A stretch of DNA of 50,600 nucleotides from an uncultured Steroidobacter sp. (lineage in GTDB: Bacteria > Pseudomonadota > Gammaproteobacteria > Steroidobacterales > Steroidobacteraceae), in contig CAMLEO010000012.1 of the NCBI GenBank assembly GCA_946478975.1, forward strand, positions 1-50,600. The letters are read 5' to 3'. The notes beneath the pieces were generated by a model. The model saw only the letters and a list, made by a program, of their open reading frames with translations. It made no database searches and had not been told where the DNA came from. A program made the position numbers and the translations under genes. Shown here piece by piece: positions 1,705-47,129 of the stretch (position 1 is the stretch's first letter; each line of letters starts with the position of its first letter).

Positions 1705-4371
1705 ATGAGCTCGGCTGTGCTCGACGCGGCGATGTGGCAGCTGGTCGATTCATATCTCGACCAGGCTTTCGATCTCGAAGCATCGGAGCGCGAGCAGTGG
1801 CTGGCCGAGCTGACCGTCACACAGCCGGTGATTGCCGGCGCCGTGCGCGAGCTGCTGGCGGAACATGCCGAGCTGCAGGCCGAGGGATTCCTGAATGAGC
1901 CGGCGGTGCCGGCCACGGAGCTCGCGGCGGCCGCAAATGTTTCCATGGCCGGTCGCGTCATCGGCGCTTACACCATCGAAAGTCTGATCGGCCGCGGCGG
2001 CATGGGTGAAGTCTGGCTGGCCTCACGCAGCGACGGCCGCTTCGAAGGGCGCTATGCCATCAAGTTTCTGGACAGCATGGTGGCGCAGCCCAAGCTGCTC
2101 GAACGATTTCGCCGCGAGGGCAGGGTGCTCGGCAAGCTCGCACATCCCAACATCGCGCGCCTGCTGGACGCAGGCACCACCGACGACGGTAAACAATTTC
2201 TGGTGCTCGAATATGTCGACGGCCAGCGCATCGACACCTTTTGCAGCTCCAAGCGTTACGAGATCGACGCGCGCGTCCGCTTGTTCCTGGCGGTGATATC
2301 GGCGGTGGCGCACGCTCACAGCCAGCTGGTCGTCCATCGCGATCTCAAGCCATCGAACGTGTTCGTGACCGAGGATGGCACCGTCAAGCTGCTGGATTTC
2401 GGAATCGCAAAGCTGCTGGGGGTCGACCAGGCTGGCGAGGAATCCGCGACGCGCGTCGAAGAAGCAGTGCTCACACCCGAGTACGCCGCACCCGAGCAGT
2501 TGCTCGGTGAGCTGCCGACGACCGCGACCGACGTGTATCAGCTGGGAATGTTGTTATATGTGCTGCTGACCGGCGCACATCCCTTTCCTCGCGGCAGCAG
2601 TCGTGTCGAGCGCATCAAGATCGCGTTGGACGGTCGCATTCCACGTGCTTCGCAATTCGCGAGCGGCAAGCTGCGAAAACAGCTGCGCGGCGATCTGGAC
2701 GCGATCCTGGCCACGGCGCTGCAAACAGATCCGAAACTGCGTTACGCGACGGCGGCAGCATTGCGAGAGGATCTGGTGCGCTATCTGAATCGCGAATCGG
2801 TTCGGGCGCGGCAGGGCTCGATGTTTTATCACGCTGCCCGCTTCGTGGCCCGACACCGAGTGGTCGTGTTTGGATCGGCGATTGCGGTTGCTTCCTTGTG
2901 CGTGACCTTGTTGTTTGCATTGGAGCAGGCTCGGGTCGCAGCCACGGAACGAGATCGCGCGCTGAGCCTCGCGACGCGTAACACCGCTGTGACAGATTTT
3001 CTCGGCATGCTGATTACCGAAGCGGCCGAAGCCGACAAGCCGGTGACGGTGCTCGATATGCTCGAACGTAGCGAGCGCCTGGCAATGAACGACACCAACG
3101 ATACGCCAGAGAATCGCGCGGCGGTGCTGGCGATGATCGCCTCGCGCTATGGCGCATTGGGCGAAGACGACAAAGCGGCTCGTTTGCAGGAGCGAGCGCT
3201 GACGCTGTTGGAAGGAACTCACGATGCGGCGTTACGTGCGCAGGTGAGTTGCGATCGCGCCGAAATCATTGCCGATCTCGGCCAGCTGGAGCAGGCCGAC
3301 CGCATCATTGCCGAGGAACTGCCGAAGCTCGACGACGAACCGGAAACGGCTGCCGGTTGTTTGCTGAGCGGCTCGACCGTCGCTGGCACTCAGCACGATC
3401 CCGAGGCGACGCTGCGCTACGCGGAGCAGGGGCTGGCACGCATTCGCAGCGCCAAGCGCTGGAACCGCGTTGACGAGGCGCTGCTGCTTTCGATGGTGGC
3501 GTATGGACATCACTTGTACGGCAGCAATCAGGAAGCCGAACGTTACTTCGAGCAATCGATTGCAACGTTTGCTCAGCTGGGGCGCGAGGGCGCGCCGGAG
3601 GCGCTCTCGGTCAGAAACAACTGGGCCGTTTCGGTGGACGAGGCGGGCGTGCCGCAGCGTGCGCTGGAACTTTATGAAACCATCCTGCGATTGTTTGCTG
3701 AGCGCAATCCAGGCGGCGAGGTCCCCGCATACGTGCTGGGAAATCGCGGCGGGGCATTCGAATCGCTTGGGTTGTACGAACAGGCGCTGGCTGCGACCAA
3801 CGATGAGCTGAGGATTGCACGTGCCGCCGGCAGCGTGATGGGAGAAGCGCACGCCTTGAAGGGGCTTGCGTCCATCTATCAGCATCAAGGCAAGTCGGAC
3901 CTCGCGCAGCGCTATCTCGATGAGTTCGCGGGGCTATTGAAGCAGATGCCGGCCAACAGTCCACCCTGGACCAGTCACATGATCCTTCAGGCACGCATCG
4001 ATATCGATCACGGCCGGCTGGATGAAGCGCGCAGTCGCTTTACGCAAGCCTTGGATCGTGAGATCGGCAGCGCCGCCACGATCACGACGCGGCTCGGGCG
4101 TGCGGAAGCCGAGATGCGCGCAGGCGATGACGATGCGGCGGTGGACGATGCCCGCGTTGCGCTGGAGATCGCCAAGTCATTGCAGGGAGATCTGCCGTAC
4201 GCGGACCAGACCGGGCACGCGTCCCTGATTCTGGGACGTGCGCTGAAAAAGAAGGGACGCATCCGCGAAGCGCACGATGCGTTCGAAGTTGCGGTCGCGA
4301 ACTTGTCGCACACGGTAGATGCCTCGCATCCCGCCGCCGTGCAGGCCCGTCAGCTGCTGGCCGAAACTTAG
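1705..4371 (+). CDS. Membrane Ser/Thr protein kinase with C-terminal TPR domain
   Basis: An 888-residue Hanks-type kinase. Residues 1-70 form the helical leader common in kinases of this architecture ('EREQWLAEL...VRELLAEH'). The kinase domain spans about 90-370: Gly-rich loop 'IGRGGMGEVW' (95-104), ATP-binding Lys120, catalytic loop 'HRDLKPSN' with Asp213, DFG at 231-233 and an APEQ activation-segment end. One transmembrane helix at about 388-408 ('VVFGSAIAVASLCVTLLFAL') is followed by roughly 470 residues of TPR-like repeats, presumably periplasmic and sensory. All catalytic residues are present, so it should be active. Its 3' end overlaps by 4 bases the convergent ECF sigma gene; kinases of this type are linked to ECF43 sigma factors in Vibrio and Xanthomonas, so that sigma factor is the best candidate substrate. 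Confidence 0.92.
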   Translation: MSSAVLDAAMWQLVDSYLDQAFDLEASEREQWLAELTVTQPVIAGAVRELLAEHAELQAEGFLNEPAVPATELAAAANVSMAGRVIGAYTIESLIGRGGMGEVWLASRSDGRFEGRYAIKFLDSMVAQPKLLERFRREGRVLGKLAHPNIARLLDAGTTDDGKQFLVLEYVDGQRIDTFCSSKRYEIDARVRLFLAVISAVAHAHSQLVVHRDLKPSNVFVTEDGTVKLLDFGIAKLLGVDQAGEESATRVEEAVLTPEYAAPEQLLGELPTTATDVYQLGMLLYVLLTGAHPFPRGSSRVERIKIALDGRIPRASQFASGKLRKQLRGDLDAILATALQTDPKLRYATAAALREDLVRYLNRESVRARQGSMFYHAARFVARHRVVVFGSAIAVASLCVTLLFALEQARVAATERDRALSLATRNTAVTDFLGMLITEAAEADKPVTVLDMLERSERLAMNDTNDTPENRAAVLAMIASRYGALGEDDKAARLQERALTLLEGTHDAALRAQVSCDRAEIIADLGQLEQADRIIAEELPKLDDEPETAAGCLLSGSTVAGTQHDPEATLRYAEQGLARIRSAKRWNRVDEALLLSMVAYGHHLYGSNQEAERYFEQSIATFAQLGREGAPEALSVRNNWAVSVDEAGVPQRALELYETILRLFAERNPGGEVPAYVLGNRGGAFESLGLYEQALAATNDELRIARAAGSVMGEAHALKGLASIYQHQGKSDLAQRYLDEFAGLLKQMPANSPPWTSHMILQARIDIDHGRLDEARSRFTQALDREIGSAATITTRLGRAEAEMRAGDDDAAVDDARVALEIAKSLQGDLPYADQTGHASLILGRALKKKGRIREAHDAFEVAVANLSHTVDASHPAAVQARQLLAET

Positions 4372-45573: not shown

Positions 45574-45984
45574 TCACGTCGCCGCAGCGGCGCTCAGCCA
45601 GCGAGCAGCATCTGTGCGAATGTCTCGACGTTCGAGTCGCGGCACGCTCCAGCTGGTCGAGCTCATGCGACCCTTGAGGCGATATCGGCTCACGATCTCC
45701 AGGTGAGGTTTCCAGCGCACGAATTTGCGCATGTCACTTTCCGTGCGCCAGACGGACACAGAGCCCGATGCGCGATCGAGCGCGTCCACCCACAGCCACG
45801 TTCCCACCGCGCCCGGAATCTCGTGCCAGCGGCGCATCATGGTCACACCCGCGTAAGCGATGCCGGGCAGGTGGCGCATCCGGAACGCCTCAAAGCGAGT
45901 CACACTCACGAACAAAGCATCCTGCGCTTCAGACTCCGGGCCCGGCGTCCAGCGCGACCAAAATAACATCGTATTCAGATCCAT
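45574..45984 (-). CDS. Small protein, dimeric alpha/beta-barrel (DUF3291/monooxygenase-like)
   Basis: A 136-residue protein starting 'MDLNTMLFWSRWTPGPESEA'. 'DALFVSVTRFEAFRMRHLPG' continuing IAYAG, then 'GTWLWVDALDRASGSVSVWR' followed by TESDMRKFVRWKPHLEIVSRY resemble DUF3291 or antibiotic-biosynthesis-monooxygenase folds, where strand-helix-strand units dimerise. The second region 'SVSVWRTESDMRKFVRW' is the best marker. No active-site residue can be named. ATG 45984 has no strong ribosome site and the next ATG (45969) is an alternative. Its end lies five bases from the convergent GGDEF gene. Confidence 0.6.
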   Translation of the reverse strand: MDLNTMLFWSRWTPGPESEAQDALFVSVTRFEAFRMRHLPGIAYAGVTMMRRWHEIPGAVGTWLWVDALDRASGSVSVWRTESDMRKFVRWKPHLEIVSRYRLKGRMSSTSWSVPRLERRDIRTDAARWLSAAAAT

Positions 45985-46136
45985 TTTTGGGGGGAGAGAG
46001 CAGGCGCAATGATAGGCACGCGGGCGCATCGAAGAACTGCGAGTAGCCGCGTCCGCAAGAAACTTTCCAGACCGATCCTGATCGACATCGTCCGAACAGG
46101 CGTCCCGCGCGCGGCGTCGTTCAGGTCGGAAGACTC

Positions 46137-46164
46137 TTGACACGCACGTCGTAATAGATATTCT
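46137..46164 (+). promoter_or_regulatory. Sigma-70-type promoter of the structured RNA
   Basis: TTGACA (46137-46142, perfect -35), 16 bases, TATTCT (46159-46164, four of six -10 positions). A transcript would start near 46171, directly before the folded RNA region. This is the strongest promoter-like sequence I see in the non-coding stretch 45985-46352. Confidence 0.6.
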
Positions 46165-46170
46165 GCGCGC

Positions 46171-46341
46171 CCCCACATGGGAGTAACGAACAAGTGAATT
46201 TGCAAACAACTCTGCAGCACATCTCGTGAGCGCCTGACTCGCAGCCTTGGCTTCGCGGGTGGCGCACCCCTGAAGCCGAGCGGCGAGTCGCAGTTGTTTG
46301 CGGACTCCAAAAACCCTCGGTCGTGCCGAGGGTTTTTTGTT
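46171..46341 (+). ncRNA. Structured RNA / leader with terminator, upstream of unknown-function gene
   Basis: This stretch does not look coding but folds well. A 10-base-pair stem joins GCAAACAACT (46202-46211) with AGTTGTTTGC (46292-46301). Inside are GACTCGC/GCGAGTC (46236-46242 with 46283-46289), CTTGGCTTC/GAAGCCGAG (46246-46254 with 46272-46280, one G-U) and GGGT/ACCC (46257-46260 with 46266-46269) with a five-base loop. A 24-base bulge (46212-46235) interrupts the 5' side. GGAGT (46180-46184) can close the structure with ACTCC (46304-46308). An intrinsic terminator ends it. It could be a stand-alone small RNA or a riboswitch-like attenuator of the gene starting at 46353. I recognise no Rfam family. 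Confidence 0.65.
46309..46338 (+). terminator. Intrinsic terminator, possibly bidirectional
   Basis: AAAAACCCTCGG (46309-46320) pairs perfectly with CCGAGGGTTTTT (46326-46337) around a five-base loop TCGTG; six Ts follow the GC stem. The A-run on the other side would serve the minus strand too. The outer bases GGACTCC (46302-46308) and GGAGTCC (46345-46351) can extend the stem and bury the downstream ribosome site. It lies only 15 bases before ATG 46353. Confidence 0.8.
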
Positions 46342-46352
46342 TCTGGAGTCCT

Positions 46353-47129
46353 ATGCGTAGCGATATGTACAAAGTGATCGTCGAGCGGCCGCGCGGCTGG
46401 AAGGGCGGCGATCGACGGGCCGTGCAGTGGCGGGACGATTTCGACGGGCCGATGCAGCTCGGCATGCGTGCCGGCTATGCCGGTCGCTTCCTCAATGAGA
46501 ACCTGGCGCCGCTGCGTCGTTATCTGCGTGCGCAGGTCGGGCGCCCGTGGAACAAGGTGTTCAGCGAGATCAGCGCGGGCATCGATCGTCGCAACACCGT
46601 GCAGCAGCACATCCACCAGCACATCGACGATTTCATTGCCGTTCGCGTCGCCGTGCGCGACGAGCGGTTGATCGATCTGGATCGGCTGTCGAGCGTCCGG
46701 CCGGGCGAGCTGCGCCAGGAGTTGTATGTCGATCCGCTGACCGGATTGATCCGCGTCAACAAACAGTACCGCGCCCGGCAGCGAGAGTTCGTCGAGTGGC
46801 GACAGCAACAGCAGGCGCAGCTGGTCGCTCGCCGCCGCATCTTGAAAGACCGCACTGTGCTGCTGCGGCTCGACGATCTTTGGTTCCAGATCACGCTGGC
46901 GGAAGTGCCGGCGGGGCGGGCGGTGGAGCACATCGTGCACGGTCAGTGCAAGAAAAAGATCGTTTATGACCGGCGTTACGACGTGGTGCTTCGGCGTGAG
47001 ATCTCGCTGTATGTGGATGCGCAGGAGCGCGAGCGTCTGTATGGATCGGCGGCGATGTATGCGGTGAGCAAACGGCAGCTTTCCAAGCGCGAGATGAAGG
47101 TGCACGGGCTGCGCGAGCAGATCCCCTGA
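46353..47129 (+). CDS. Unknown protein of the 'MRSDMxKVIVERPR' type
   Basis: A 258-residue basic, soluble protein. It begins MRSDMYKVIVERPRGWKGGD; I recall this opening and 'LNENLAPLRRYLRAQVGRPW' followed by NKVFSEI from an uncharacterised family common in planctomycetes, myxobacteria and other soil bacteria, often in several copies. Further blocks are 'VQQHIHQHIDDFIAVRVAVR' and 'LYVDPLTGLIRVNKQYRARQ'. The many Arg/Lys/His and aromatic residues suggest nucleic-acid contact, which is inference. There is no catalytic motif, signal peptide or membrane helix. ATG 46353 has GGAG four bases upstream, inside a segment that can pair with the preceding RNA. It is followed 62 bases later by the DUF349 gene. 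Confidence 0.8.
   Translation: MRSDMYKVIVERPRGWKGGDRRAVQWRDDFDGPMQLGMRAGYAGRFLNENLAPLRRYLRAQVGRPWNKVFSEISAGIDRRNTVQQHIHQHIDDFIAVRVAVRDERLIDLDRLSSVRPGELRQELYVDPLTGLIRVNKQYRARQREFVEWRQQQQAQLVARRRILKDRTVLLRLDDLWFQITLAEVPAGRAVEHIVHGQCKKKIVYDRRYDVVLRREISLYVDAQERERLYGSAAMYAVSKRQLSKREMKVHGLREQIP

Follow-up and report, generated by a model that had tools for sequence, protein, structure and literature searches.

The window, by which we mean the whole 50,600-nt stretch of DNA analyzed here, carries on its forward strand a structured leader with a terminator and a hidden ribosome site in front of a gene linked to RNA repair. A putative σ70-type promoter (46137–46164) consists of TTGACA at 46137 and TATTCT at 46159 separated by a 16-nt spacer, exactly as the original prediction had placed it, and matches the consensus at 10 of 12 positions; it is the one promoter-type site found in 45900–46500, where shuffled sequences lead one to expect 0.1. 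Judging from the −10 box, transcription would start near 46171 and yield a leader RNA spanning 46171–46343. The sequence and its computed fold agree on a set of nested stems at 46202–46301, which had been predicted as four perfect stems of 10, 7, 9 and 4 pairs. The outer stem of 10 bp (46202–46211/46292–46301) and the second stem of 7 bp (46236–46242/46283–46289) are indeed perfect, whereas the third stem (46246–46254/46272–46280) reaches nine pairs by including one G-U, with six consecutive Watson-Crick pairs, and the apical stem (46257–46261/46265–46269) has 5 bp. Next comes an intrinsic terminator (46309–46343), also where it had been predicted, with a 12-bp stem (arms 46309–46320 and 46326–46337) and a T run; it is the only strong terminator in 45900–46500, against 0.5 expected in shuffles. 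The gene that follows (46353–47129) encodes a 258-residue protein of the MRxDM family, which is associated with RNA repair in relatives. Its reading frame continues without a stop back to a GTG within the loop of the terminator (46323–47129), so that an N-terminally longer form is possible by sequence.

Could this region be an ordinary constitutive terminator with chance hairpins lying between genes, for example the remnant of a mobile element? The 190-nt leader region folds at −89.3 kcal/mol, compared with −63.2 ± 4.5 kcal/mol for shuffled sequences, none of 200 of which folds as low (z = −5.8), and the 172-nt form of the leader without the downstream part gives z = −5.5. This stability, the promoter-like site immediately 5′ of the leader, and the terminator that is followed at once by the gene’s ribosome site all argue against chance hairpins, an explanation that draws on the failure to find a homologue of the window RNA and that we regard as improbable. 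The search for homologues found none in phage and plasmid records and, among the 217 Povalibacter-family genomes searched, only matches of 21–43 nt in 20 of them. Over the collected loci, blastn with the window leader gave matches of up to 40 nt only, and the match in locus L100 falls within an acetyltransferase-like ORF. Conserved synteny of a DUF349 gene, present in 52 of the 217 genomes, was also considered and rejected. The upstream flanks of L101, L102, L104 and L107 contain no such leader, and the other gammaproteobacterial loci examined (L002, L031 and L097) are without a leader of this layout.

Three complementary segments, GGAGT at 46180, GGACTCC at 46302 and GGAGTCC at 46345, lie where the original prediction had put them, and the middle one was proposed to pair with either of the other two and so to hide or free the ribosome site. 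The pairing of the middle and third segments exists and is in fact 8 bp long, joining GGACTCCA (46302–46309) to TGGAGTCC (46344–46351), the ribosome site of the next gene, which it covers. A 7-bp complement between the flanks of the terminator (46285–46308 and 46338–46360) is reached by 107 of 20,000 mononucleotide shuffles. The 8-bp pairing wins the computed folds, in which the ribosome site is paired at 0.92, and the competing 5-bp pairing of the first and middle segments is absent from the best folds. What stands of the predicted cis-acting logic is thus the terminator and the hidden ribosome site, with similar leaders present in relatives, while the two-way switch is left unsupported.

A metabolite riboswitch would account for the aptamer-like nested stems, the terminator and the sequestered ribosome site. 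The Rfam search that had been suggested as a check was run with Rfam 15 over the whole window and returned no family at or above its gathering score, the best sub-threshold match on the leader being Trp_leader at 21.7 bits against a gathering score of 41. Further points against a riboswitch are that a conserved unpaired core cannot be shown and that the leaders of relatives vary in sequence between genera yet retain a leader ORF. We found no evidence for a ligand-binding aptamer and consider a riboswitch very improbable.

Might ribosomes read the window leader itself? A candidate leader ORF with a Shine-Dalgarno sequence lies at 46179–46229, running from the GTG at 46194 to the TGA at 46229 (MNLQTTLQHIS). 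Its possible Shine-Dalgarno sequence, GGGAG at 46179–46183, contains most of the first GGAGT segment, and the 10-nt spacing and the GTG start make this ORF a weak candidate. The stop of an alternative ATG ORF (46177–46197, MGVTNK) is overlapped by the GTGA of the candidate GTG ORF. When a ribosome was masked at the start, middle or stop of the candidate ORF, the computed pairing of the ribosome site stayed at 0.92–0.97 and that of the terminator at 0.93, in folds in which the ORF was placed one base too far to the right with hardly any effect on the position of the mask. In the nascent fold, the 5′ arm of the terminator was paired at 0.26–0.27 whatever the position of the ribosome. A candidate antiterminator segment at 46275–46283 may pair with 46314–46321 in the terminator 5′ arm at −12.7 kcal/mol, a marginal value in that 25 of 400 shuffles are as low, and among nine leaders tested no antiterminator was clearly better than shuffles (25 to 292 of 400 as low). 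A Trp-type switch was considered for the window and set aside, equilibrium folds with a masked ribosome giving no such switch.

The product of the downstream gene had been described as an unknown protein. Searches against Pfam, NCBIfam, PHROGs and PADLOC gave no match to its 258 residues, and no convincing relative of solved structure was found (best E = 0.77), but homology over the length links it to at least 1198 proteins at E ≤ 0.001, of which the best 120 were listed, a family that keeps RNA-repair company in relatives. An alignment of 65 sequences (A8) has 14 invariant columns. The loci collected here comprise 73 from a genome collection and 20 from viral contigs, and the gene also occurs in one plasmid record and one phage record; the 73 genome loci were found by two peptide patterns, so more loci exist. 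Its distribution is sporadic: in counts that each include the query genome, it was found in 4 of the 217 Povalibacter-family genomes (one match covering residues 1–24 only), in 41 of 101 Variovorax genomes (36 nearly full length, five partial or weak), in 4 of 62 and 2 of 14 genomes of two other genera (one of the latter two internally deleted), and in 7 of 399 genomes of an order-level sample (one a fragment). On the viral contigs (L074–L093), L076 holds the gene near an AAA ATPase and small proteins without assignment, and a GroEL-like ORF, as read from the sequence, lies near it in L086, L089, L091 and L093.

The link of the MRxDM gene to RNA repair follows from its neighbors in relatives, which are RtcB, PrfH, SPFH/slipin proteins and tRNA arrays, and on the strength of this company we class the gene as RNA-repair associated. 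By Pfam, RtcB (PF01139) stands beside it in L006, L013 and L041, a PrfH-type release factor (RF-1 domain) adjoins it in L041, and SPFH/Band_7 proteins adjoin it in L001 and L003; tRNA arrays of 22, 5 and 6 genes lie beside it in L001, L029 and L037, respectively. In the window itself, tblastn with RtcB, PrfH and slipin reached no better than E = 0.12, and with the small partner protein described below no better than E = 0.067, neither of them significant; ARAGORN found no tRNA gene there. At the Povalibacter locus (L001:43–3207 and 4284–4359), the 22 tRNA genes, an RtcB-like ORF, an SPFH protein and the MRxDM gene stand together. In Xanthomonadaceae loci (L003, L004, L007, L009, L015, L018 and L039), the SPFH gene is preceded by pairs of tRNA-like genes, some of which lack a normal anticodon. 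At several loci (L012:5791–5997; L191; L233 and L244; L164/L165), either rtcB or the MRxDM gene has lost an internal part while keeping both ends, which recalls the E. coli K-12 deletion reported in PMC1586002.

A terminator scan reaching up to 2.6 kb upstream of the MRxDM gene found a strong terminator in 18 of the 73 genome loci. At least five of the 18 (L008, L014, L038, L042 and L043) end the preceding gene, as read from the sequence, and were rejected as leaders; the Variovorax leaders of L005, L010 and L020, with their longer loops, escaped the scan. Four lineages carry a leader, namely Massilia-type bacteria, L013/L169, Variovorax and L012, and they share a layout in which a σ70-like promoter is followed by a structured RNA, a terminator, and then the rtcB or MRxDM operon. 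In the Massilia-type leader, a Shine-Dalgarno sequence, an ORF (MPRTAI[ND]N[SAT]QDR), stems and a terminator precede rtcB; the leader of L013/L169 has the ORF MTAVT[HL]Y[SA]R, then the terminator and rtcB; and that of L012 has a GTG ORF and a terminator before an internally deleted rtcB. L012 is titled Rhodospirillales, yet its order-level sample overlaps that of L013, so its title or bin may be wrong. It is in relatives, and not in the window, that leader ORFs of translated appearance and covarying leader structure were found, in front of rtcB or, once rtcB is missing, of the MRxDM operon.

A covariance model (R1) built from five Massilia-type leaders was run over 343 genomes of the betaproteobacterial GTDB family of Massilia horti and matched 76 places in 70 of them. 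Seventy of the 76 places were read, leaving out G1018, the second place in G1035, G786, G940, G1014 and G535; the last three have scores so low (29–34 bits) that as many as three of the 70 genomes might owe their match to chance. In an alignment (A7) of 44 of 73 leaders (the 70 and L166–L168), 93.5% of cells pair and 18 of 49 pairs have double changes. Cells with double changes number 104 against 29.5 ± 5.2 in shuffles, a comparison to be read with the alignment having been fitted to the structure and with related sequences inflating cell counts; when partners are slid by 1–3 columns, pairing falls to 34–49%. The leaders of L006 and eight further loci of this family reach no Rfam gathering score, nor do L129 and L169, and the best match on a leader among those loci is His_leader at 32.2 bits against a gathering score of 49. 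On this evidence from sequence we regard the rtcB leader family as new and absent from Rfam 15, and as the best-supported new result of the analysis. Weak matches of a further model of the family (R2) at L013, L169 and the Variovorax leaders (12.6–17.2 bits) were not counted as homology. The best further match of R1, in L037 (21.3 bits, E = 0.009), was likewise rejected; there a terminator lies ~270 nt before an RtcB-like ORF, with no clear leader ORF.

All 70 leaders read have a GGA Shine-Dalgarno sequence and an ORF of 10–16 codons, with 12 codons in 53 of them, and the stop lies within TAGC[CT] in 69. The stop in the stem stays in frame even though 17 of the 70 ORFs do not have 12 codons, which makes it likely that the ORFs are translated. 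The frame test gave no clear signal of peptide conservation in these leaders (a synonymous share of 0.299 in the ORF frame, compared with 0.282 and 0.190 out of frame), and 53 distinct peptides occur among the 70. The first gene after the leader, by tblastn, is rtcB in 41 cases, a small partner protein gene in 22 (L239, L243 and others), an rtcB remnant followed by the small protein gene in two, and a GNAT acetyltransferase gene in five, so that 65 of 70 leaders precede rtcB or the small partner gene. The small partner is a basic protein of ~57 residues (..KPRNPLVAAARLR..AGAHQ..RRAGK..LL.GR) without a Pfam match, and its gene elsewhere lies between rtcB and the MRxDM gene. L197, L198, L199 and L202 have lost rtcB; their leader is followed by the small protein gene and then the MRxDM gene, which is the arrangement nearest to that in the window. 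In each of five genomes, the leader before tandem GNAT genes (L224, L254, L257, L258 and L262, with GNAT assigned by Pfam in L258) is a second copy alongside one that precedes rtcB.

These leaders bear on a reading in which protein binding to the window leader, by the MRxDM protein itself, by RtcB or by some other RNA-binding protein, would autoregulate the choice between termination and read-through. The MRxDM family does travel with RNA enzymes, and the folds of the window leader turned up no strong ribosome-driven antiterminator, both of which suit such a reading. An ORF with a Shine-Dalgarno sequence, kept in 70 of 70 leaders of relatives, would be needless for protein binding, however, and the same leader also precedes GNAT genes; we consider a protein-bound leader distinctly unlikely.

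The Variovorax leader precedes the small-protein gene and the MRxDM gene. Among 44 loci examined, 40 leaders were found by pattern, 37 of them distinct; the loci without one (L177–L180) have weak or partial gene matches. A 7-codon leader ORF is intact in all 37 distinct leaders, in 36 as scored by script and in L130 (second codon AGC) by eye. The segment directly 3′ of its stop reaches over the terminator to pair with the ribosome site, with 97.7 and 100% of cells paired and no double changes, so this hiding helix, for all its conservation, is unproved by covariation; in the leader structure overall, 3 of 40 pairs have double changes. A hairpin loop ACCUCC, like the 16S anti-Shine-Dalgarno sequence, lies before the ORF in 36 of 37 leaders (L020:5558–5783, alignment A3). 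Mimicry of this kind was considered for the window, and nothing like the loop was noticed there.

With a ribosome masked, neither the window leader nor those of L006 and L013 showed any release, and in the latter two a masked stop left site pairing unchanged (0.32 and 0.55, respectively). In Variovorax and L012, whose leader ORFs end adjoining the segment that hides the ribosome site, a masked stop reduced site pairing (0.90 to 0.70 in Variovorax; also 0.99 to 0.82 and 0.91 to 0.64). Equilibrium folding cannot settle a switch that operates co-transcriptionally, so these results weaken the switch without excluding it.

What, then, does the window leader do? We propose that it is a cis-acting attenuator that would raise expression of the RNA-repair-linked gene when translation fails, a reading to which we give an even chance. 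Computation gives the parts of the leader, how stable they are and the association of the gene family with RNA repair; where transcription starts and ends in the window, what induces it and that a switch operates at all are inferred. The intrinsic terminator would stop most transcripts after ~170 nt, near 46338, and in transcripts that read through, the 8-bp helix would hide the ribosome site of the MRxDM gene as a second level of restraint. Relief would most likely come from ribosomes that translate the leader badly, owing to damaged 16S rRNA or tRNA or to translation inhibitors, as reported for the RtcB-like gene armZ of Pseudomonas. In a model worked out on paper, a ribosome stalled at the stop of the leader ORF would sit on one side of the 7-bp stem, its 5′ arm, and the freed 3′ arm (GAGTC, 46285–46289) could then take up the GACTC of the middle segment. 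A different reading holds that the promoter, the compact fold and the terminator, which together form a complete unit, produce a stand-alone small RNA of ~170 nt that acts in trans or that the MRxDM protein has as its partner or substrate; the gene would then be expressed by read-through or from another promoter. The 8-bp helix over the ribosome site of the gene and the position of the relatives’ leaders, directly before the first gene of the operon, both point to cis control, and a stand-alone RNA is unlikely, though to be taken seriously.

Beyond the window, we tentatively suggest, as somewhat short of an even chance, that in several proteobacterial lineages the control of RNA-repair operons lies with leaders that monitor the ribosome, built from a short ORF, competing folds and a terminator and perhaps of independent origins. 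Failed translation, not an RtcR-type protein sensor, would then turn repair on; the window would have a leader of this sort, in which the ribosome site is locked as well, and one of the leaders would be a new RNA family that also precedes GNAT genes. An open question in RNA repair is what signals broken ribosomes or tRNAs to the bacterium. If the attenuator reading is true in several lineages, with leaders before rtcB and MRxDM genes, ribosome failure would be a general and directly testable signal, and the leaders would offer an entry to the uncharacterized MRxDM family with its at least 1198 members.

Several known systems invite comparison. Bacterial Y RNAs of the YrlA type have a tRNA-like module and a Ro/Rsr gene nearby, and RtcB operons are linked with Ro and Y RNAs. 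A Y RNA reading was considered for the window, in which ARAGORN found no tRNA-like gene and Rfam gave no match. With the trp and his attenuators (Trp_leader, RF00513; His_leader, RF00514), the window shares the logic of a leader and a terminator; unlike them, it has no run of regulatory codons, and its Trp_leader match is sub-threshold. Known signals for RNA repair include the regulator RtcR (PMC7790460) and TrcR in Anabaena (PMC10272220). Among the open-access papers that our searches listed, none described an rtcB leader in other bacteria, and a term search of PMC8632094 likewise found nothing, which does not prove that such a description is absent.

The window leader resembles the leaders of relatives in layout and gene content, a likeness that makes the attenuator reading one by analogy and that does not establish common descent. 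Homology to models R1 and R2 is unsupported: a default search of the whole window with R2 finds nothing, and with filters off R2 scores the window leader at 10.8 bits, hardly above a decoy made of the reversed terminator (9.9). As in the rtcB leader of the Massilia horti family, an outer stem and inner hairpins are followed by a terminator. The Massilia-type leaders differ in having the Shine-Dalgarno sequence within the outer stem and an ORF (ATG; GTG in L254) that ends in TAG, and they precede rtcB or, where rtcB is lost, the small protein gene (with the MRxDM gene in four loci). In the window as in Variovorax, the first gene has its ribosome site paired with a segment on the other side of the terminator. 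In contrast to the window, the Variovorax leader has a 7-codon ORF without a Shine-Dalgarno sequence that ends right before the hiding segment, a ribosome at its stop lowers site pairing, and similarity to the window is undetectable beyond a 20–25-nt stretch at the terminator.

The nearest precedent in regulatory terms is PA5471.1, a 13-residue leader peptide reported to control armZ (PA5471) and prfH (PA5470) of P. aeruginosa by attenuation, with stalled or impaired ribosomes proposed to prevent the terminator (PMC12057347, PMC13041342 and PMC3516279). PA5471.1 has mutational evidence, and a 2025 review calls the attenuation mechanism proposed and in need of more study (PMC12057347); that review also states that control of an anti-repressor by a leader peptide appears unique to MexXY. 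The window differs from PA5471.1 in that its leader ORF is a candidate, its gene does not encode RtcB, and an extra 8-bp helix lies over the ribosome site. Like PA5471.1, which stands before the RtcB-like armZ with prfH, it combines a leader with a terminator, and the family of its gene accompanies RtcB and PrfH in relatives.
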